A stretch of DNA of 64,000 nucleotides from an uncultured Thalassolituus sp. (lineage in GTDB: Bacteria > Pseudomonadota > Gammaproteobacteria > Pseudomonadales > Oceanobacteraceae), in NCBI RefSeq assembly GCF_950066645.1, contig NZ_CATMFB010000001.1:186001-250000 (forward strand), read 5' to 3'. The notes beneath the pieces were generated by a model. It was not told the DNA's origin, ran no database searches, and was given only the letters and a program-made list of their open reading frames with translations. Position numbers and translations under genes: made by a program. Below are positions 26,563-40,252 of this stretch, one piece after another (position 1 is the stretch's first letter; each line of letters begins with the position of its first letter).

Positions 26563-26593
26563 ATGATTATTGGTGCGAAGCATCGGAGCTGGT

Positions 26594-26875
26594 ATGTCGA
26601 CGATCCGTAAAACCATTACCGTCACCGCGCCGCAGAGTGAGTGGATTAAGTCCCGCATCGCCAGCGGTGATTTTACGAATGACAGTGAGTACATCCGTGA
26701 TCTGATCCGCCGTGATCAGGAGAGACTGGATGAAGTCGAGCGTGTGCGCAGGGCATTGGCTGAAGGTGAACGCTCGGGGCTCTCGGAAAAGAGCTTTGAC
26801 GACATTTTAAACGCTGCCAGGGATAAGGTTGCCATTCATGAGAACGCTGCGGTTTACCAATCAGGCAGAGAGTGA
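26594..26875 (+). CDS. parD: ParD-family antitoxin
   Basis: The 93-residue protein begins STIRKTITVTAPQSEWIKSRIASGDFTNDSEYIRDLIRRDQE, the ribbon-helix-helix pattern of ParD/CC2985-type antitoxins, followed by a helical toxin-binding tail (FDDILNAARDKV). I chose the ATG at 26594 as the family start; an upstream ATG at 26570 would add eight residues. It overlaps parE by 38 bases, so the genes are coupled. Confidence 0.9.
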   Translation: MSTIRKTITVTAPQSEWIKSRIASGDFTNDSEYIRDLIRRDQERLDEVERVRRALAEGERSGLSEKSFDDILNAARDKVAIHENAAVYQSGRE

Positions 26876-27122
26876 TCTTACTGACATCTATGAGTATGGA
26901 GTAAGGCAATTCGGCGTTCGCGCTGCTGAATCATACATGCAGATGTTGGGCGACAAGTTCGCGCAGATGACGGAGCTTCCAGAGCTGCTTCCTGTATTTA
27001 AGGGCATTGAATCAGATTACCGCAAAGCCGTCGTGCAGAAGCATGTCATCTGTTTCCGCAGCGGGCCTGACGAGGTTGTGGTTGTGCGCGTTATCGGACG
27101 GCAGACGACAGAGCAACTTTAA
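26838..27122 (+). CDS. parE: ParE-family toxin
   Basis: The 94-residue protein has TNQAESDLTDIYEYGVRQFGVRAAESYMQ, then PVFKGIESDYRKAVVQKHVICFR and a VVVVRVIGRQ strand, the full ParE fold. Family members poison DNA gyrase. The ATG at 26838 opens the first strand (MRTLRFTNQA). The module appears complete, unlike the toxin fragments at the left window edge. Confidence 0.9.
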   Translation: MRTLRFTNQAESDLTDIYEYGVRQFGVRAAESYMQMLGDKFAQMTELPELLPVFKGIESDYRKAVVQKHVICFRSGPDEVVVVRVIGRQTTEQL

Positions 27123-30931: not shown

Positions 30932-33900
30932 TTAACGCATCAGCTCAGGTGCGAGCGCCTCCAGCGTGCTGGTTCGCATCAGCTCGGTGGCGATGCTGTC
31001 GTCGATATCATGAAGATCGACGACTCCCATCACTTCGTCGTAATCCATGTCGATGAATGCCGTCGTCTCCAGCATAAGTGAGTACTGACTGTCTGGTAGC
31101 ACCGCATCGGTGATGCCGGCAGGCAGTGAGGGCAGAGTCACTGAAGTTTCGCCTGCAGGCAGGTGGATCGCCCAGGCCGTCTGGTAGCCGGCACTTGCCT
31201 GAGAGGTTTTCAATCGCAGTGTCGTCAGGTCGCTGTAGCCATTAATACGGTCACGCACCGGCGTCCAGCTGATTGTCGGGTTGTCACTGCTGTCGTTCTG
31301 GCTTTCCATGATTGGACGATAGGCAATGCCGCTCGCCACGGAAAATTCAGCAATGTCACCGCTGCGGTCAAGCACATCACCGGGCTGCCAGTACTCCCAG
31401 GTTTCGGTATATGCCACGCTTGCCAGTCGGGTTTCTGGCAGGTCTATGTCTGCACCGGGCAGTTGCACAGGCGAGCCCAGTGTCAGGAAACCACCCAGGT
31501 TGACCAGCCCATTGCCGGATACTGCGACCGTCACCAGATCGGTCGCGGTGAAGCTGATGGACAGCTGTTCGCGATCAGCGACGATCGGATTTTCGCCTGA
31601 AGGAATGGTGGTGAAGGTCTGGCTACCCAGATCTTCTGCGCTGGTCACCACGCCGCTCTCGACTTTGAAAGCCCACAGATTTCCAGTGACTTCCGTGCCA
31701 ACCGGAACATCGAAGTAGAGATCTTCGTAGTAATAGTTGGCTTCGTAGGAGGTCAGGAAGAAGCGATCAACCTCGTGCACAGGCCGATGGTTATCGTCGA
31801 GCAGCGCCAGTACATAGCTTTCGCCGGTATCGTTATAGAAAGGTACGTAAGAGCGATCCGCTGCTACGCCAAGCTGGTCAAGCTCAGAGTACAGTGTGAC
31901 ATCCTGCCCCGGAGCAACGCAGTAGAAGCTCTCGTAACCGTAGCCGTCATTGAATACGTGCACATTCTGAGTGCCCGACAGCCCCGTGAATGAAGCCATG
32001 CCAGACGCATCCGTTGTGAGCGTGGCGTCATTGTCGTTCAGCATTACGATAGCCCCTGCGATTGCTGCGCCATTGGCGTCGCGCACCATCACAGAGATAT
32101 CTCCGCTACCAGCAACGACATCCGCACATGTGGCCGGGATAAAGCCTGCGTTTGATGCCAGCAGCTCAGTGCCATAATCGAGAAGATAGATTGCACTGAC
32201 GATGTAGCGGTCGTCTGTCGTATTCCAGATGCCATCACTGCCCCAGTATTCACTGGCGGACATCACCAGCTCGCCGGCCGCGTTGTACTCACTGAGCGAG
32301 TAATAACTGAAATCATCGTCCGTTTTCCAGATACCGTCTGCGCCGGGGCTGTAGGCGCTGCTTTCGCGCACAATCAGGCCGTCAGAATTCCGCTCTGTGT
32401 AGGCGACATTGGTGATCTCTCCCGCAGCATCGAACCCGGTGGTAAACAGCGGGTTGCCGTAAGCGTCTTCTTCTATCTCACGATAGCCCGTCAGGTCGAA
32501 GGTGCCTGCGTCATTCCGCTGGAAGTCTTCCAGACGGTACGATGTTGGCGAGAGCTCACTGTATTGGGTGTAAAACAGCAGGGTATCGCTGGTGTCGTAA
32601 CGCTCATATACGGTGAGGCGGCTGCCGCTGAAGGTCTCAACGATGTAACCACTGAGCACATCGTCATCCGTAAACCATTCGGCATCCGGCCCCGGCTGGT
32701 TGTACTGGTTATAGCCTGTGTCTGTGGCTGTCGAATATGGCCATGGCAGAGTGTCATCTGCGGTCAGAGGTACGCCGTCAGTGCCAAAGTCAGCGGCATA
32801 CAGTCCCAGGCTGTTTGAGAAGTCTGCCGAGTACACGGTATAGCGATAGATCTGGCTGTCACTGAATGCAGGATCGTTAGGAGCTCGCGCGGGGTCATAG
32901 TAAAACTGCTTGAGAACCCGCCCTTCGGCATCGCGCTCGTACTTCCAGTAGTTGTAGGAGGCCGTCGGCAGATCGTCCGACGTAAACCACAGGCCGTCCG
33001 TTCCTTTGCTGCTGAAATCCGCACGCTCAAGCTCGTTGTTGGCGTCGTCATACATCCGGTAGCTGTAACCATAGATATTGTCGTCGCCGCTCAGCCATTT
33101 ACCATCCGGCCCCATGCCGTTCACCCGTGCGCTGATGCTGACGATGCCGGCATCGGTGTCTGAGGTGAATGACAGGGTGCCGCTGGCGAAATCGTCAGCG
33201 GTGAACCACTCGCCATCCAGGCCGATGCCGGTATGGTTGGCGATGATCAGCAGGTCGCCGTCGTCGTTATAACCGTAGTAGCCATAGCCACTGACGTTGT
33301 CGTCGCTGGTAAACCACACGCTGTCGCTGCCGGCCAGGTTATATGTCGCTGAGTACAGCGGCTGATAGTTGTCTCCCAGGCGTTGCTGTACGTGGGTCTG
33401 TACCCGGTCGTCAGCGGTAAACCATTCGCCGTCCGCGCCTTCGCCATTAAAGACCGCCGTGACCGTCTGAGGAATACTCACATCGGTGGAGATCAGGGTG
33501 TAGTTGTCAACGGCATCGTCGCTGGTAAACCAGAGGTTATCCGGGCCACTACTGTCGTAGGTAACGACCTGCCCCCGGTTCCCCTCGCCATCGATCACCA
33601 TGACCTGATAACCCATGCGACAGCCCGGGTAGTCGTCTGCGGTAAAGGCGATGCCGTCGTCACCAGGGTTCAGACACGGCAACACCAGAACAGCGCCTTC
33701 GCTGGCCCCTTCAAATTCCAGTAACGCGTTTTGCGGAATCATCACGGCACCGCCATTGCCTGCGGCAACGTCGTCCTCGGTGTACCACTGACCATCCGCG
33801 CCGGGGTGATCAAAGCCGTACGAGACGCCCAGGTAGCCGAATGGCGAAATGCTGTAGCTGATGATGTAGTCATCGTGAGTGTCAGCGACGCCGTCGATTC

Positions 33901-35416
33901 CCATGCTCACTTGGGTGATTCTTACCCAGTCATGCGTCGGGGTTGCTTCCGTGATGTCATAGCTGGTGCCAGTAGAAATACTGGTCACCGTGCTGGTGAG
34001 CCCGGCAGGCACAGGTGCAAATATCGCGTCCTGTTGTTGTGCCGCCAGCTGAGCGTACAGGCTGGCGATATTGCTGGATGGATCAAGAGGAGAAACGTCC
34101 GGGGCGATAGGGGTAAAGCCAGCGGGCAACTCAGGGTCCAGATTCAGCGTTGAGAAGTCGTAAAGCGCTTCACCCGGTGCCGGTGGTGGTGTGACCACCT
34201 CGTCCTCACAGGTGATAGATACGTTGCTGACGTCCGCGTTGAGCGTGCCGCTGCCGTTGCTCACGCTGCAGGTCTGGACCGTTGGTGATGAGTTGATGCT
34301 GACAGCCCAGGTACTGCCACTGACCATCGCGCCGGTAAAGGTCACCGCTCCATTGGTTGCGCTACCGTCGTTATGGAAGGCGCCGTCTTTGCGTAGCTCC
34401 CAGGTCACCGGGCCTGATGCCCCTGCCACTGTCCCACTGATGCTGTAATTGGTGGGGCCGACGACAATATCTGCACAGGTAATAGCCACGTTATCGACAT
34501 CAGCCGACAGTGTGCCATTGCCGTCCGTAACCAGGCAGGTCTGACCCGCGGGCGCGGTGTTGATGACGACGCTCCAGTTGCTGCCTTCCCCGATGCCAGC
34601 AGCGGGCGAAAAGACGACGGTGCCGTTGCTGTCACCACCATCGCGGACGATGCTGCCGGCAACGCGGGTTTCCCAGATCACAGTGCCGGTCGCCCCTGAA
34701 ATCGTCCCTGAAATACTGAACATTTCAGCCGGTGGCGGTGCGGGCAGATTCGCCAGATTGCCGTCTCTGATCAGAGTGACCAGAGCGTCGTAACCGTCGA
34801 TGGCCGGATCATTGTCAATGGCGTCACCGATGTCGTCGAGTAGCCCGTCCCAGCCGGTACCATCGGCAACGAACGGTGTGGTCATAGGATTGCCGGCTGC
34901 CGGAATATCGAAGCCTTTGGCGGCGAACGAATTCAACAGACTGGTTGAAGCTGTGCTGGTGTCCACGGGCGTGCCATCAAAATTCGCGAACCAGTCCGCC
35001 GGTGTCTGCCCCGTTGCCGACGCCATAATCATATCGGTGAGCGGAGTGATATTCACCGTCCCTGCGGTGGTGGCGTAACTGTGCAGCGTCACGGGAGGAT
35101 TGCCGCCAGTCACCTGTAACGCACAGGGCATCGCCCCGTTTGTGACTTCGCCCGACCAGTTACCGTTGGCATCCGTGGTGACCGCTTCCGTGAAGCCCGT
35201 TCCATCAGAACATATTGCCGTGACAGTGCCATCGGTAATGGCAGCGCCGATCGCCGCGGTACCCGAGAGTGACTCGGTCGTGGCAGGTGCCTGAGGTGTG
35301 GGTGTGACCGGTGTGGGCTCATCCGAGCCTGAACCAGAAGAACCGCTGCAGCCTGCCAGCAGGAAGGTTCCGAACAGCGTGCCGAGCAGCAGGCGATGCC
35401 TGAAGTGAGTATCCAT
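30932..35416 (-). CDS. giant surface lipoprotein with GxDGxWFTxDD repeats, 1494 aa
   Basis: A lipoprotein signal (FLLAGCSGSSG, Cys near residue 22) is followed by a Ser/Thr/Pro linker and a helical region (to about 230). Two similar beta modules come next (about 231-315 and 322-405, SISGTISGATG / SISGTVAGASG). About 13 repeats of GxDGxWFTxDD with Tyr-rich strands between them span roughly 505-1070. An Ig-like module (ISVMVRDANGAAIAGAIVML) and a C-terminal beta domain complete it. Acidic loops in each repeat could bind Ca2+. I do not know this repeat family. The ATG at 35416 opens the signal peptide. A shared palindrome lies about 62 bases upstream. It is probably an outer-surface adhesin or matrix protein. 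Confidence 0.8.
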   Translation of the reverse strand: MDTHFRHRLLLGTLFGTFLLAGCSGSSGSGSDEPTPVTPTPQAPATTESLSGTAAIGAAITDGTVTAICSDGTGFTEAVTTDANGNWSGEVTNGAMPCALQVTGGNPPVTLHSYATTAGTVNITPLTDMIMASATGQTPADWFANFDGTPVDTSTASTSLLNSFAAKGFDIPAAGNPMTTPFVADGTGWDGLLDDIGDAIDNDPAIDGYDALVTLIRDGNLANLPAPPPAEMFSISGTISGATGTVIWETRVAGSIVRDGGDSNGTVVFSPAAGIGEGSNWSVVINTAPAGQTCLVTDGNGTLSADVDNVAITCADIVVGPTNYSISGTVAGASGPVTWELRKDGAFHNDGSATNGAVTFTGAMVSGSTWAVSINSSPTVQTCSVSNGSGTLNADVSNVSITCEDEVVTPPPAPGEALYDFSTLNLDPELPAGFTPIAPDVSPLDPSSNIASLYAQLAAQQQDAIFAPVPAGLTSTVTSISTGTSYDITEATPTHDWVRITQVSMGIDGVADTHDDYIISYSISPFGYLGVSYGFDHPGADGQWYTEDDVAAGNGGAVMIPQNALLEFEGASEGAVLVLPCLNPGDDGIAFTADDYPGCRMGYQVMVIDGEGNRGQVVTYDSSGPDNLWFTSDDAVDNYTLISTDVSIPQTVTAVFNGEGADGEWFTADDRVQTHVQQRLGDNYQPLYSATYNLAGSDSVWFTSDDNVSGYGYYGYNDDGDLLIIANHTGIGLDGEWFTADDFASGTLSFTSDTDAGIVSISARVNGMGPDGKWLSGDDNIYGYSYRMYDDANNELERADFSSKGTDGLWFTSDDLPTASYNYWKYERDAEGRVLKQFYYDPARAPNDPAFSDSQIYRYTVYSADFSNSLGLYAADFGTDGVPLTADDTLPWPYSTATDTGYNQYNQPGPDAEWFTDDDVLSGYIVETFSGSRLTVYERYDTSDTLLFYTQYSELSPTSYRLEDFQRNDAGTFDLTGYREIEEDAYGNPLFTTGFDAAGEITNVAYTERNSDGLIVRESSAYSPGADGIWKTDDDFSYYSLSEYNAAGELVMSASEYWGSDGIWNTTDDRYIVSAIYLLDYGTELLASNAGFIPATCADVVAGSGDISVMVRDANGAAIAGAIVMLNDNDATLTTDASGMASFTGLSGTQNVHVFNDGYGYESFYCVAPGQDVTLYSELDQLGVAADRSYVPFYNDTGESYVLALLDDNHRPVHEVDRFFLTSYEANYYYEDLYFDVPVGTEVTGNLWAFKVESGVVTSAEDLGSQTFTTIPSGENPIVADREQLSISFTATDLVTVAVSGNGLVNLGGFLTLGSPVQLPGADIDLPETRLASVAYTETWEYWQPGDVLDRSGDIAEFSVASGIAYRPIMESQNDSSDNPTISWTPVRDRINGYSDLTTLRLKTSQASAGYQTAWAIHLPAGETSVTLPSLPAGITDAVLPDSQYSLMLETTAFIDMDYDEVMGVVDLHDIDDSIATELMRTSTLEALAPELMR
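32205..33910 (-). repeat. coding repeats: about 13 copies of GxDGxWFTxDD
   Basis: Within the giant lipoprotein, units such as GADGEWFTADD, GSDSVWFTSDD, GLDGEWFTADD and GTDGLWFTSDD recur, mostly every 35-40 residues (105-120 bases) with a few longer gaps. The connecting parts carry Y-x-Y-x-Y strands and an NG/DG turn. The first and last copies are the most degenerate. Confidence 0.85.
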
Positions 35417-35478
35417 ATTGCGCCCCGGGAGTTTAGTGATTGTCCCGGGCACGATAGAGAGTCGGTGCTTGCGCGAGT

Positions 35479-35496
35479 ACCCCGTATTTAAGGGGT
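35479..35496. promoter_or_regulatory. ACCCC-N8-GGGGT palindrome, site a
   Basis: ACCCCGTATTTAAGGGGT lies about 62 bases before the giant lipoprotein ATG and overlaps the kinase stop codon. It shares arms and a central TTT with the sites at 37638 and 38384. No T-run follows, so a simple terminator is unlikely. Confidence 0.55.
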
Positions 35497-37605
35497 TACC
35501 GCCAGTGGAGTGGTCAGAATGACCGACCATTCGTAACCCTGGCTTGTTTTGTCACAGGATACGTCAGCAGTGCCGCCCGTGCGTTGCATCCTCTCCTGCA
35601 GGTTACGCAACCCCATGCCTTGTCCGGCAGAGCGCTCAAGGGCACCTTCTTCGCACAGGTTGGTGATCCTGAGCTGCAGCTGGTCGCCTTCCTCTTTCAC
35701 TGTGACAGACACAGGGCCACCACTGCGATACCGGATGGCGTTACTGAGGGCCTCCCTCAGGGCCATACTGACCTGCGATACGGCGACCGCGCTCAGCTCA
35801 CCGTCACTGGCGGCAGAGTGCCAGGTCAGCGGGATGTTATGGTCCTGGCAGCGCAGGTCCGCTTCAGCCTGCCACTGATGCAGAACACGGGACACCGGGC
35901 TACCGGAAGTCGCATTGTTCTGAAGCAAAGTGCGCAGGTCCTGAATTGCTTCTTTGACCAGCGGTCGGTCATCGGGTTGGGCACGGTGCAGAAGACGCAG
36001 TAATTTGGCGCCCAGATCATCGTGCAGGTCCTGTCGGATGCGGGCCCGCTCTTCCTGCGCGCCTTCGGCCCGGGCGGCGAGACTTCGCTGCACCAGCTCG
36101 TTCAGAGCCAGCACCAGTTCCCCGATACGCAGGTCGGATTCGCGGAAGGTGCGCCGCCCCTCAGCCGGGTGGCTGAGAACAAAGGCCTGACCTTTGCCAT
36201 TCGCGAGGCGCAGGGTGTTATTGCCTGCCTCCAGAGTGTGGAGGTCGGAATCGTGAGCCTGAAGCTCGACCGAAAGTGGAGAAAAGACAGCTTTCAGGGC
36301 GTTGATCACGCTCGTGCTTCTGGTCACGCCATCCGCAGACTGGTGCGCACGCAGCAGCTCAGGTAGCGAGCGGGTCAGCCAGTCCTGCAGCTGATCATCA
36401 CGACGCATAAAAAAGCGCCGCCAGAGCATCTGCCTGACCGGGAAATACAACCAGCCGATGACGGCAAGTGAAACGGCCAGTGTTGTTGTCTGCGACAGGC
36501 CGATCGCCGAGGCTATCGCAACGTCCGCCAGCAGGACGGCCATGCCGCCCAGAAACCAACCCCAGAGTTTGTAAGACCAGCGCTCGATGTCGAACATCTG
36601 ATGACGGGTGACGGCGATCATCATGCCGGCGTAAACAAACACAAAACTGGCGATCATGACGCTTTGCGGCACGTCCGTGTAGAGCTTTAACACCGCAGGG
36701 ATGGTTGTGGCGGTCATAAACAGCAGAATCCAGCGCAGCGCCGCCCGGTTCTTCGGGTTGTCGGCGTTGTTTCTGAATTGCTGCACCATGCCGAAAACAG
36801 CGATGGCAAGAATGCAGGTGAAGGGCAGATAAACACTCAGTGCCAGCTCGTCAAACACCTGGAAGACAGCGAGCTGACTCGTCAGCAGTGGCAGGACTAA
36901 CAGCAGATAACTGGTGCGGACCGACACCAGCGCTTTGGGATAATTCCACAAGAGCACGCTCAGTCCGCCCATAAACAGATTGGTTCCGAGCAGATTGACC
37001 AGAGACAGGGGCTGAAACAGGTCGCTGGCAATAAACAGATTGCGGGAACTGTAAATACCCGCGCTGGTGGCCAGCAGGAAATACCCGACGCCGGTCAGGA
37101 TAAAGCCTGCTTTCGCAAGGGTGACCTGGCCGGGCAGCCAGACCAGTGTGCACAACAACAGACCGACAAAGGCCGCACTGACCTGAATCCAGAAGTCGGT
37201 CGGCAGATCACTCAGCGTCCTGCTTCTGGCCGTCAGGCGATAACTTGCTGTCGTAGTTTCTGCCGTAGTTTCTGTCGTGGTTTCAACCACCAGGACATCA
37301 GCCGTCAGCGCCTGAGTCAGTAGCTGGATATCAGCGAACAGCCGGTTCAGCTCGGGGTAAGTTTCGATGACATCCGGCTCGTCGATGGCAAGCTCGGGAT
37401 AAGCTTTCAGATAGCCGAGCGGCCAGTGAAACGCGACGACCTCAACGGCTGGTCCATTATTGTCAGGTTCGACCAGCAGAGACTCGGGAGTGTGGATAAA
37501 GCGCGCATCCGTGGTCGGAAGCGACAGAGCAATGCCGAAAATTAACAGGGTCATCAATACCGGTACGGCAATACCAATAAAAATACGTGACCTGACTGAG
37601 TTCAT
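35488..37605 (-). CDS. membrane sensor histidine kinase, NarX/DesK-type
   Basis: The 705-residue kinase has an N-terminal membrane anchor and extracytoplasmic region (about 30-140) with the TTTETTAETTTA stretch. About seven to eight further membrane helices follow (about 145-395), then a cytoplasmic part. The HisKA_3 phospho-acceptor is in EERARIRQDLHDDLGAKLLRLLH, and the HATPase has SMALREALSNAIRYRSGG and GMGLRNLQERM. It is divergent from its likely partner, the NarL-type regulator at 37731. The signal is unknown. A palindrome in the shared promoter suggests autoregulation. Confidence 0.9.
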   Translation of the reverse strand: MNSVRSRIFIGIAVPVLMTLLIFGIALSLPTTDARFIHTPESLLVEPDNNGPAVEVVAFHWPLGYLKAYPELAIDEPDVIETYPELNRLFADIQLLTQALTADVLVVETTTETTAETTTASYRLTARSRTLSDLPTDFWIQVSAAFVGLLLCTLVWLPGQVTLAKAGFILTGVGYFLLATSAGIYSSRNLFIASDLFQPLSLVNLLGTNLFMGGLSVLLWNYPKALVSVRTSYLLLVLPLLTSQLAVFQVFDELALSVYLPFTCILAIAVFGMVQQFRNNADNPKNRAALRWILLFMTATTIPAVLKLYTDVPQSVMIASFVFVYAGMMIAVTRHQMFDIERWSYKLWGWFLGGMAVLLADVAIASAIGLSQTTTLAVSLAVIGWLYFPVRQMLWRRFFMRRDDQLQDWLTRSLPELLRAHQSADGVTRSTSVINALKAVFSPLSVELQAHDSDLHTLEAGNNTLRLANGKGQAFVLSHPAEGRRTFRESDLRIGELVLALNELVQRSLAARAEGAQEERARIRQDLHDDLGAKLLRLLHRAQPDDRPLVKEAIQDLRTLLQNNATSGSPVSRVLHQWQAEADLRCQDHNIPLTWHSAASDGELSAVAVSQVSMALREALSNAIRYRSGGPVSVTVKEEGDQLQLRITNLCEEGALERSAGQGMGLRNLQERMQRTGGTADVSCDKTSQGYEWSVILTTPLAVTP

Positions 37606-37637
37606 TGGTCTCCTTACCTGACGCTTATGGCAGCCAG

Positions 37638-37656
37638 ACCCCCATTTCGTGGGGGT
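37638..37656. promoter_or_regulatory. ACCCC-N9-GGGGT palindrome, site b
   Basis: ACCCCCATTTCGTGGGGGT lies in the 125-base spacer between the divergent kinase and regulator genes, 32 bases from the kinase ATG and 74 bases from the regulator ATG. It matches sites a and c apart from one extra base, so it is a candidate binding site of the regulator. Confidence 0.55.
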
Positions 37657-37730
37657 TAATCTGTCTGGGGCTCTGTGGCATTGTGGGATTGGAATTAACG
37701 GCTGGCAATAGGGCGAAACGGGACGACATC

Positions 37731-38384
37731 ATGAAAACCATGCTGATCATTGAGGATATTCCGGAAGTCGGAGACTGGCTTCAGCAGCAGTCGGGCCGGG
37801 TGTTCCCTCAAGCTGTCCAGCATCGGGCGGCCTCTGTTGCTGAAGCCTGTGCCCGTCTCTCGTATCTGTCTCCCGACCTGGCGCTGATTGATCTTGGCTT
37901 GCCCGACGGCGACGGGCTGAGTGTGCTGCGAACACTGAAACGCGATCACCCTCAGACCTGTTGTGTGGTGACCACCATTTTTGATGATGCCGGGCACCTG
38001 TTCCCGGCACTGCGGGCGGGTGCAGACGGCTACCTGCTGAAAGACGATGACGAGCAGGAGTTCACCGCGGCACTGTCCGGAATCGTGGATGGCCGGCCTC
38101 CCTTGTCACCCTCCATCGCCAACATGATGCTCCGGCATTTTCAGCAGACCGCACAGCAGATGGCGCAACAGGAAATCACCCTCACCAGTCGGGAAGAAGA
38201 CATGCTGGTGCTGGTTGCCAATGGCTACAGTGTGAAAAATGCCGCAGAGTCACTCGGGATTTCCGTGCATACGGCTTCCGGGTATCTGAAAAACCTGTAC
38301 CAGAAACTTCAGGTGACAAATCGGGCAGAGGCCGCGCTGAAGGCCGTCAATCTTGGTCTTATTAATCCCGCCGATACGCTCTGA
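37731..38384 (+). CDS. NarL/LuxR-type response regulator
   Basis: The 217-residue protein has a receiver domain (MLIIEDIPEVGDWL with acidic pair, Asp in LALIDLGLPDGDG near residue 53, Lys in GYLLKDD) and a LuxR-type helix-turn-helix (LTSREEDMLVLVANGYSVKNAAESLGISVHTA). I chose the ATG at 37731 because it opens the receiver; the frame upstream crosses the promoter palindrome. It pairs with the divergent HisKA_3 kinase. Likely targets are the two lipoprotein genes with the shared palindrome. Confidence 0.93.
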   Translation: MKTMLIIEDIPEVGDWLQQQSGRVFPQAVQHRAASVAEACARLSYLSPDLALIDLGLPDGDGLSVLRTLKRDHPQTCCVVTTIFDDAGHLFPALRAGADGYLLKDDDEQEFTAALSGIVDGRPPLSPSIANMMLRHFQQTAQQMAQQEITLTSREEDMLVLVANGYSVKNAAESLGISVHTASGYLKNLYQKLQVTNRAEAALKAVNLGLINPADTL

Positions 38385-38401
38385 CCCCCTGTTTGCGGGG
38401 T
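38384..38401. promoter_or_regulatory. ACCCC-N8-GGGGT palindrome, site c
   Basis: ACCCCCTGTTTGCGGGGT begins at the last base of the regulator stop codon and ends 56 bases before the next lipoprotein ATG. It has the same length and arms as site a (ACCCCnTnTTTnnGGGGT). Confidence 0.55.
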
Positions 38402-38457
38402 ATCCGTCAGACCATTTCCGCCAGAGACTGTGCTCCTGATTTATTAAGGAGCTGATC

Positions 38458-39471
38458 ATGAAGAAAACTCTTGCCTCTGTGTGTACTGCCGTCTTTCTGA
38501 TTGCCGGTGCGGGTGCCCTGACAGGGTGCGCCTCGCTGATGGGAGGTGGTGAAAAAGAAGTCCGCCTGTGGACTAAAAACGAAGATTCACTCGCCGGTAA
38601 AAAAGATGTCTATGTCGGACACGTGGCCGTGGTCTTTCAGACCGAAGACAAAGGGTCAGCCAAGGCTGAGAGCCCTATGTTCAGCCGCCATAACCGTGGC
38701 GACTACGCCAATATGACTGTGGTCGCGAAACTGAATGGCGTGCCCGAGTCCACCATGCAGGAAATCGCCGACAATGCCCGCGCGCAACTGGTCGCGCAGC
38801 TGCAAGCCCGCGGTTTTAATGTGCTGAATTACAGTGATCTGACCCGGCACAATAAGTGGGATGACGGTGCCGTTGAGTCGCCTTATCGCCCATCAGGTAT
38901 CGGCAGTTTTCTGCGTAACGAAGACAGCAGCAGCCTGATGTTTGCGCCGACGGGCATGCAGCTGTTTGCGGGTGGTCAGACCAAACTCTGGCATCTGAAC
39001 AATATTGCGGACGATCTGGAAGTCCCGGTGATCACCGCTGAATACACCATTCATTTCGCTTACTTCGGCAGCGAGGCCGATCGTACGGTCGATTACATGA
39101 CGCCGACCCTGTCAGGGCGTCCGACTCAGACACTGACTGCCAGCGTTGAAATGGGGCAGGGGATTTCAGTCGCGCCATATTCGGGGATTTCATACTCCCT
39201 CGATGCGGCGGGTTCTTTCAGTGATAATGGCTCGATCAAACTGCGCGATCCTGTCGTGGTGGCCGGCACATACGGTACGAACGAAGACACCACCTCCGGT
39301 GGCCGCAAAGCGGCGAATGCGTTGAGTTCTTTTCTTGGTATGTTCAGCGGTAAATCGAGCAAGGTGACCGAATTCACCATTAATGCGAACCCCGACCATT
39401 ACAAAGCGGGCGCTGAGATGGCCATCGAAGCTGCAAACGAAAAACTCTTCGCGGCGCTCGAACTGAACTGA
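38458..39471 (+). CDS. hypothetical lipoprotein, 337 aa
   Basis: A lipobox (GALTGCASL, Cys near residue 24) precedes a beta-rich domain with KKDVYVGHVAVVFQTEDKG, a mid-region STMQEIADNARAQLVAQLQARGFNVL, and a C-terminal amphipathic region (NPDHYKAGAEMAIEAANEKLFAAL). I do not recognise the family. An AAGGAG site precedes the ATG. It follows the response regulator and has palindrome c in its leader, so it is probably under that regulator. Confidence 0.75.
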   Translation: MKKTLASVCTAVFLIAGAGALTGCASLMGGGEKEVRLWTKNEDSLAGKKDVYVGHVAVVFQTEDKGSAKAESPMFSRHNRGDYANMTVVAKLNGVPESTMQEIADNARAQLVAQLQARGFNVLNYSDLTRHNKWDDGAVESPYRPSGIGSFLRNEDSSSLMFAPTGMQLFAGGQTKLWHLNNIADDLEVPVITAEYTIHFAYFGSEADRTVDYMTPTLSGRPTQTLTASVEMGQGISVAPYSGISYSLDAAGSFSDNGSIKLRDPVVVAGTYGTNEDTTSGGRKAANALSSFLGMFSGKSSKVTEFTINANPDHYKAGAEMAIEAANEKLFAALELN

Positions 39472-39494
39472 TCTTCCTGATCATCTTGCTCTGA

Positions 39495-39522
39495 GGCAGA
39501 ATACGCGCCTGTGTATTCTGCC
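39495..39522. repeat. perfect hairpin between lipoprotein and DTW genes
   Basis: GGCAGAATAC (39495-39504) and GTATTCTGCC (39513-39522) form a 10-bp stem with an 8-base loop. It could end the lipoprotein transcript or affect the DTW start eleven bases later. No T-run follows. Confidence 0.55.
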
Positions 39523-39532
39523 CGGAGCCACT

Positions 39533-40252
39533 GTGTCCCGACCCGCCCCGATCCATGCTGTCAAAGCGCTGCGCCTGCAGGAGCTGGCACAGTCACGTCG
39601 CGAGTTTCTTGCCCGGGGGTGTCGTGTCAGTCGCTGCGAGGATTGTCTGCTCGCCCAACCTCAGTGTATCTGTTCCGAACGTCCTCAGGCCCGTCAGGGG
39701 CTCGGAGTGTGCCTGCTGTATTACAAAGGTGAAGTGTACAAGCCCAGCAATACCGGGCGCCTGATGGCTGATGTGGTGGAGAATACACACGCTTTTCTCT
39801 GGAACCGCACTCAGCCGGACGCCGCCATGCTGACGCTGATCCGCGATCCCGGATACGCTCCGTTACTGGTGTTCCCGTACGAATACGCCGAGCACACCCG
39901 GCATATGCGCAGTGACGATGTGCTGAATGCATACCTTGGTGGCCGAACGCCTCTGCTGATTTTTCTCGATGGTACCTGGCGCGAAGCCCGGAAAATGTTC
40001 CGCAGTCACTGGCTGGCCGATATTCCGGTCATTGCCGTAGAGCCTCAGCAGGCGTCGCAGTATCAGCTCCGCGAGGCCGCGCACGATCATCAGCTCGGCA
40101 CGGCCGAAGTGGCTGTACCTCTTTTGCAGCGGCTTGGTCAGCCGGAAATGGCTGGGGCTCTGGACGCGTGGTTTGCGCTTTTCCGCGAGCGGTATCTTGC
40201 CGGAAAAGCCAGACACTATCCGCAGACAGACAGCGCGCAGGGCGAAGACTGA
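39533..40252 (+). CDS. tapT: DTW-domain tRNA uridine aminocarboxypropyltransferase
   Basis: The 239-residue protein has a cysteine cluster CRVSRCEDCLLAQPQCICSE that probably binds zinc, then the DTW-family segment LLIFLDGTWREARKMFRS and a C-terminal WFALFRERYLAGKARH. E. coli TapT (YfiP) of this family makes acp3U47 in tRNA from SAM. The length matches (232). The GTG at 39533 follows a CGGAG site. I infer the same role because only one DTW gene is visible here. Confidence 0.85.
   Translation: MSRPAPIHAVKALRLQELAQSRREFLARGCRVSRCEDCLLAQPQCICSERPQARQGLGVCLLYYKGEVYKPSNTGRLMADVVENTHAFLWNRTQPDAAMLTLIRDPGYAPLLVFPYEYAEHTRHMRSDDVLNAYLGGRTPLLIFLDGTWREARKMFRSHWLADIPVIAVEPQQASQYQLREAAHDHQLGTAEVAVPLLQRLGQPEMAGALDAWFALFRERYLAGKARHYPQTDSAQGED

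Follow-up and report, generated by a model that had tools for sequence, protein, structure and literature searches.

CrbR of Pseudomonas fluorescens, a response regulator of the LuxR family, is associated with an ACTU repeat at -52 to -36 of the acs promoter, and its small regulon of acetate-utilisation genes was traced by conservation in Gammaproteobacteria (PMC5715377). NarL of Escherichia coli acts at ogt from a site centred at -44.5 (PMC7419079). The present analysis addresses a 64-kb stretch of DNA (64,000 nucleotides (nt), referred to as the window) from an uncultured Thalassolituus sp. (contig NZ_CATMFB010000001.1, positions 186,001 to 250,000), in which three palindromes, designated a, b and c, accompany a divergently encoded two-component system flanked by two lipoprotein genes. 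With a probability of roughly 0.8, these palindromes represent double-stranded DNA operators for a dimer of the adjacent NarL/FixJ-type response regulator, which would activate both lipoprotein genes and exert feedback at site b.

The proposed operators share with the CrbR/ACTU system a LuxR-family regulator, a conserved imperfect inverted repeat and, as estimated from -10-like hexamers, probably a position of about -52 to -36, and with NarL the protein family, inverted-repeat operators and, by the same estimate, a site centred at about -44.5. By inspection, however, the repeat sequence differs from that of CrbR (e.g., TACTACCATCGTCGAAT), and the palindromes do not carry the ACTU sequence; furthermore, the CrbR targets are acetate-utilisation genes, and CrbS is an SLC5-fused hybrid kinase. 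Among solved structures, VraR (PDB 5hev) and DevR (PDB 3c3w) were the best sequence matches of the regulator encoded in the window, their likeness as NarL/FixJ family members being one of sequence similarity alone, and the NarL structure (PDB 1a04) was matched as well.

NarL recognizes heptamers of the type TACYYMT, and the 7-2-7 arrangement of such heptamers leaves about 4 nt between the C and G tracts. The palindrome arms resemble this heptamer, whereas the gap between the tracts amounts to 6–8 nt here, which does not correspond to a 7-2-7 arrangement; kinase and targets differ as well. Fold family, architecture and promoter position are known already, and the operator sequence, its spacing and the lipoprotein regulon appear to be undescribed. 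No description of this operator was found in the open-licence literature among the matches listed, as judged from titles and abstract openings.

The Palindromes and the Adjacent Genes

Palindrome a (35479–35496; ACCCCGTATTTAAGGGGT on the plus strand, ACCCCTTAAATACGGGGT when read on the minus strand towards its proposed target), palindrome b (37638–37656; ACCCCCATTTCGTGGGGGT, no strand assigned) in the divergent kinase-regulator intergenic region and palindrome c (38384–38401, plus strand; ACCCCCTGTTTGCGGGGT) between the regulator gene and the second lipoprotein gene are the only three matches to ACCCCN{7,10}GGGGT in the window. Dinucleotide-shuffled versions of the window contained 0.18 matches on average, and none of 100 shuffles reached three. 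The distance between the C4 and G4 tracts is mostly 6–8 nt. An earlier sequence-only reading of this DNA had reported these sites and their matching arms with exact coordinates, and its further positional claims hold likewise: site a lies 62 nt before the ATG of the giant lipoprotein gene and site c 56 nt before that of the second lipoprotein gene (38458), a overlaps the kinase stop codon (gene end 35488) and c the last base of the regulator stop codon (38384), and b, located between the divergent starts at 37605 (minus strand) and 37731 (plus strand), cannot end a gene. The central TTT described as common to all three is present on the plus strand at each site, which means that at site a the TTT has the opposite orientation to the lipoprotein gene.

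The giant lipoprotein (GLP; 30932–35416, minus strand, 1494 amino acids) is the proposed target of palindrome a, and the second lipoprotein (LP2; 38458–39471, plus strand, 337 amino acids) that of palindrome c; a lipobox was recognized by reading in both. Between them, the sensor histidine kinase (35488–37605, minus strand, 705 amino acids) contains an HATPase domain and, by reading, the H-box QDLHDDLG. The regulator (37731–38384, plus strand, 217 amino acids) features a receiver domain (PF00072, E 3.7e-15) and a GerE helix-turn-helix domain (PF00196, E 9.2e-14), both above cut-off, in agreement with its previous designation as NarL/LuxR-type.

Conservation with the Regulator and the Lipoprotein Genes

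Homologs of LP2 and GLP were searched in 55 genomes, including the present one (G000). LP2 was found in six of them, all belonging to this genus and all encoding it beside the regulator, and palindrome c is present in all six (this genome counted), being kept in G001 and G008 in spite of a different gene order. GLP was detected in five of the 55 genomes, the match in G005 being a C-terminal fragment only, and a palindrome precedes GLP in all six testable genomes (G000, G001, G003, G008, Halioglobus japonicus L044 and G293). In G293, the GLP homolog and the regulator are encoded on different contigs, and the palindrome still precedes GLP; in G001, G003 and G008, its downstream arm is shortened to GGG. 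Moreover, equivalents of site b were observed between the divergent kinase and regulator genes in seven loci (the window, G003, G004, G007, L043, L044 and L045). No palindrome was seen at the kinase end of three examined loci without a GLP match (G004, G007 and Alloalcanivorax L045) or beyond the H. japonicus regulator, which is not followed by an LP2 match. The palindrome therefore seems to accompany the target gene. The arrangement recurs in distant relatives and would accordingly be a genuine, though rather ordinary, type of gene switch.

The sequence-only reading had named conservation of the palindromes upstream of orthologous genes as a check, and such conservation was observed for both lipoprotein genes. 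As for the spacers, which it had also suggested comparing in orthologous loci, the spacing ranges from N6 to N8, and the centre of site c is TTT here versus AAA or GAAC in four of five orthologs.

Additional half-sites were noticed in GLP promoters, namely CCCCCCTAAAG occurring twice, 15 bp apart, in G003 (L123, 6425–6460) and CACTTTAGG adjoining the palindrome in G008 (L124, 9130–9190) and G001. Their arrangement suggests direct-repeat or multi-dimer binding.

In 40 regulator loci (the window and 39 others, with weaker homologs left out), an interval extending 1500 nt upstream and 600 nt downstream of the regulator gene was searched for C4-N6-9-G4 with flanking A or T, using the reversed pattern GGGG...CCCC as control. 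The motif occurs near 14 of the 40 regulators and the reversed control near none of the 40. Among loci whose regulator possesses a recognition helix of the type [GS]YxK/R, 13 of 22 contain the motif, versus one of 18 loci lacking this helix (Fisher p 0.0006, uncorrected for descent).

Candidate Unlinked and Distant Targets

From exact-motif matches of 15 genomes, six stretches were chosen by eye. One of these, G137:C22, carries the motif, one of eight exact matches in G137, upstream of a gene for a 467-amino-acid lipoprotein, the N-terminal part of which matches GLP residues 50–196 (E 5e-11) and which is located on a contig other than that of the regulator. The other five stretches contained no GLP-like gene: one site lies at a contig end without a gene in view, one is intragenic, one belongs to a repeated element and two follow a gene or lie beside other genes.

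Subsequently, the GLP N-terminus was searched in 19 genomes (this genome and 18 with regulator homologs), yielding nine matches in five genomes. A palindrome was found upstream of five of the nine, i.e., the GLP gene of the window, G208:C61, G208:C175, G137:C22 and G137:C8 (with a GGG arm), and three of these genes (G137:C22, G208:C175 and G137:C8), belonging to two distant genomes, are unlinked to the regulator.

Two further sites were observed. In G208:C147 (L186, 3224–3242), ACCCCCCTGTTTAGGGGGT is located close to the end of a contig, and no gene is visible downstream; it may mark a further target truncated by the assembly. In Wenzhouxiangella (L057, 4368), ACCCCCCATTCGGGGGA directly follows the regulator stop codon and precedes a gene for a secreted-looking protein, with TAACAT at 24 nt; judging from this site, the regulon may extend to further families and to different surface targets there.

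Promoter Geometry

For each promoter, the best -10-like hexamer within 40 nt was determined, reading from the last G of the palindrome into the gene; b sites were analyzed apart. It lies at 22–24 nt in 15 of 19 promoters (1.4 expected by chance). These 19 are not lipoprotein promoters alone, since five of them (G211, G321, G208, G137 and G126) belong to regulators (two), a kinase, an operon and an unknown target. After five promoters had been added later, the GLP site of G001 among them, three of which fit, the count amounted to 18 of 24 (2000 dinucleotide shuffles: mean 1.70, maximum 6). The distance was first noticed on sequences of the same genus and Halioglobus, where it applies to 10 of 12 promoters; in the remaining genomes it applies to 8 of 12. 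The averaged -10 score likewise peaks at 23 nt, with 2 of 2000 simple shuffles of the 19 promoters attaining this value.

In the window, the hexamer TATCGT (35451–35456, minus strand) follows the last G of site a at a distance of 23 nt. At the same distance, weak hexamers are present past site b towards the regulator (CATTGT, 37679–37684, plus strand; score 1.1) and past site c (GAGACT, 38424–38429, plus strand), neither being the best within 40 nt. Orthologs of site c feature TAAAAT, TAGAAT, TAGACT, TAGAAT and CAGAAT at 22–24 nt, the last of these, in G007, being outscored by a hexamer at 34 nt. Similarly, G208:C175 has TATGGT at 22 nt, outscored by TATAAT at 17 nt. Placing the hexamer at -12 to -7 assigns the palindrome to about -53 to -35, a position that agrees with those of CrbR/ACTU and of the NarL site, as deduced from -10-like hexamers (weak at site c here) and not from mapped starts.

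For the nine regulator promoters, the peak of the score is shifted outwards by one helical turn to 33 nt (3 of 2000 simple shuffles), and the best hexamer is found there in four of nine (G003, G007 and both Halioglobus). The autoregulation postulated earlier is accordingly suggested for the regulator gene, but no comparable geometry was found for the kinase gene.

Motif Frequency in the Genomes

In this genome, ACCCCN{7,9}GGGGT occurs at 12 places versus three for the pattern read backwards. The three palindromes within 2.9 kb of the 3.7-Mb genome represent an outlier among these 12; five of the other nine places lie inside long open reading frames, three are terminator-like with A/T runs at the stem, and one follows an open reading frame which we take to be trpB-like. 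When up to two mismatches to ACCCC-N7-GGGGT were allowed, 1100 matches faced 1054 for the control, which corresponds to background. The bare motif is therefore not specific and defines no regulon, and the case rests on position and conservation. Regarding the small regulon envisaged in the sequence-only reading, the local cluster of three is real, but the assumption that the motif is rarer at random positions than at targets failed for the bare motif, here and in relatives. A genome-wide regulon hunt in this genome, in which matches of the A/T-centred core were filtered by a -10 hexamer at 22–24 nt, added no target outside a gene.

Proposed Mechanism and Its Evaluation

According to the proposed model, the membrane kinase would phosphorylate the divergently encoded regulator, the phosphorylated dimer of which would occupy ACCCC(C)-N6-8-(G)GGGGT in the -35 position, the site being centred near -44. 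The bound regulator would then recruit RNA polymerase to the GLP gene (site a) and the LP2 gene (site c), and binding at site b would provide feedback on the regulator gene itself. What was computed comprises the sites, the preferred -10 distance, the conservation of the sites together with the regulator and the targets, and the occurrence of the palindrome at unlinked homologs of the targets; we infer binding by this regulator, its phosphorylation, activation over repression, the sigma-70 promoters and the transcription starts. Conservation, unlinked targets and -10 distance also support the original proposal of putative LuxR/NarL-type operators before two lipoprotein genes.

Several results weigh against these palindromes being operators of the regulator. 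The sites are related by descent, so that the counts do not represent independent events, and spacing between N6 and N8 is unusual for a rigid dimer. Nine of the 22 loci with a [GS]Y helix have no nearby motif. Four of the nine GLP N-terminus matches (G208:C68, G191, G371 and a paralog in this genome) are not preceded by a palindrome; in G208:C68, the domain lies internally in the protein, and the recognition helix of the G191 regulator deviates (SHLK). The G371 regulator possesses a GYIK helix although its GLP-like gene has no palindrome, and the relation between helix and operator therefore has an exception.

The promoter and frequency data include further adverse points. Of the three sites in this genome, b and c lack a good -10 hexamer at 22–24 nt, which is found at site a alone, and the misses among all promoters are G000 c, G007 c, G293, the linked GLP-like gene of G208, G137:C8 and G208:C175. 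For 24 promoters, the averaged -10 score was reached by 115 of 2000 dinucleotide shuffles, which makes this form of the test weak, and the seven kinase-directed readings showed no peak (516 of 2000). The A/T-centred core occurs 33 times in this genome versus 33 for its control, and among these places only site a and one intragenic place have a fitting -10 hexamer. Moreover, the exact motif is not above its control in nine of 15 other genomes (motif versus control: G001 7 vs 8, G002 5 vs 12, G003 4 vs 7, G004 3 vs 1, G005 7 vs 5, G006 7 vs 9, G007 8 vs 10, G008 12 vs 10, G208 9 vs 2, G211 1 vs 8, G263 7 vs 8, G293 53 vs 20, G420 4 vs 6, G137 8 vs 0 and G126 8 vs 12).

Other functions of the palindromes were evaluated against the same data. 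It is unlikely that they are operators of another regulator encoded elsewhere, or that they mediate repression instead of activation. Site b, near the kinase start, could repress the kinase gene, and the likeness of the arms to the NarL heptamer as well as a second related regulator in this genome (G000:C9, 32% identity) would fit a different binding partner. However, the motif tracks this regulator lineage and its type of recognition helix, it is present at unlinked targets in genomes having the regulator, and a site just upstream of or over the -35 position is where CrbR and NarL activate.

It is quite improbable that a and c serve the kinase and regulator genes as intrinsic terminators (or as hairpins stabilising the 3' end), with b as a chance match, although a and c overlap stop codons and three of the other nine exact genome matches look like true terminators with A/T runs. 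As already stated in the sequence-only reading, none of the three sites has a T-run, which does not conform to an intrinsic terminator, and a terminator scan of 35000–39600 returned nine sites, none of them at a, b or c. Furthermore, b equivalents lie between divergent genes in seven loci, the palindrome is absent at gene ends without a following target in the loci compared, and the order of C in the left arm and G in the right arm is maintained, with none of the 40 regulators having the reversed form nearby. A run of TTTTT follows site c in G008 and G001, which would be compatible with a double role there. Operators are favored over terminators by the conservation with regulator and lipoproteins, the motif at unlinked homologs and the preferred -10 distance.

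Least probable are RNA hairpins in the leaders of the downstream genes, e.g., protein-bound or affecting translation: b equivalents do lie about 7–32 nt upstream of the kinase start, the sole promoter-like match of a scan (minus strand, 37708–37680) would place b in a kinase leader, and the centre, read towards the gene, is A-rich in 14 of 24 and T-rich in 4 of 24 cases, but the -10 distance puts the sites upstream of the transcript at most targets, the centre of site c changes from TTT to AAA or GAAC in four of five orthologs, the arms are not swapped for other complementary sequences (reversed control 0 of 40), and 35000–39600 yielded no Rfam match at gathering thresholds. The promoter-like match is at chance level (one found; mean of shuffles 1.2), and b may have a different role for the kinase; the A-rich bias arises perhaps because the half-sites differ in strength. 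Both the terminator and the RNA interpretation fit worse than operators bound by the adjacent regulator.

Features of the Encoded Proteins

The regulator scored 107.8 bits against the NCBIfam NarL equivalog model, below the cut-off of 250, and the match of the kinase to an UhpB-like C-terminus is below cut-off as well. Next to the G137 regulator, the encoded kinase matches 7TMR-DISM slightly under cut-off (27 vs 29 bits). In G007 (L127, 8832–9796), the regulator match is in two pieces about 320 bp apart (residues 1–126 and 122–215), as if split or interrupted.

For LP2, no Pfam or NCBIfam match was obtained. Its AlphaFold model is modest (predicted local distance difference test, pLDDT, 61; predicted template modelling score, pTM, 0.65; six sequences), and no PDB match to LP2 was obtained at E up to 0.001, with Helicobacter HpaA appearing only weakly. 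GLP has one carboxypeptidase-regulatory-like match, below its cut-off, and its translation displays, by reading, many repeats of the type GxDGxWFTxDD resembling calcium-binding loops. Elsewhere in the window (26570–27122, plus strand), two small overlapping open reading frames have, by eye only, the look of a ParD/ParE-type toxin-antitoxin pair.

Significance

Taken together, an operator that appears to be undescribed is proposed for a conserved two-component system and linked to functionally uncharacterised lipoproteins, one of them 1494 residues long. Tentatively, and with somewhat less than even confidence, it is proposed that NarL-type regulators sharing a [GS]YxK helix form a clade that recognizes a C-tract/G-tract operator of longer spacing than that of NarL and controls a scattered family of surface lipoproteins sharing the GLP N-terminal domain, which would constitute a lipoprotein-dedicated regulon across several gammaproteobacterial families with a helix-to-operator rule. 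Since the motif, the recognition helix and the -10 distance tend to go together in distant genomes, targets would be predictable elsewhere, and the influence of half-site spacing and of NarL-type recognition helices on DNA specificity could be examined in this natural system.

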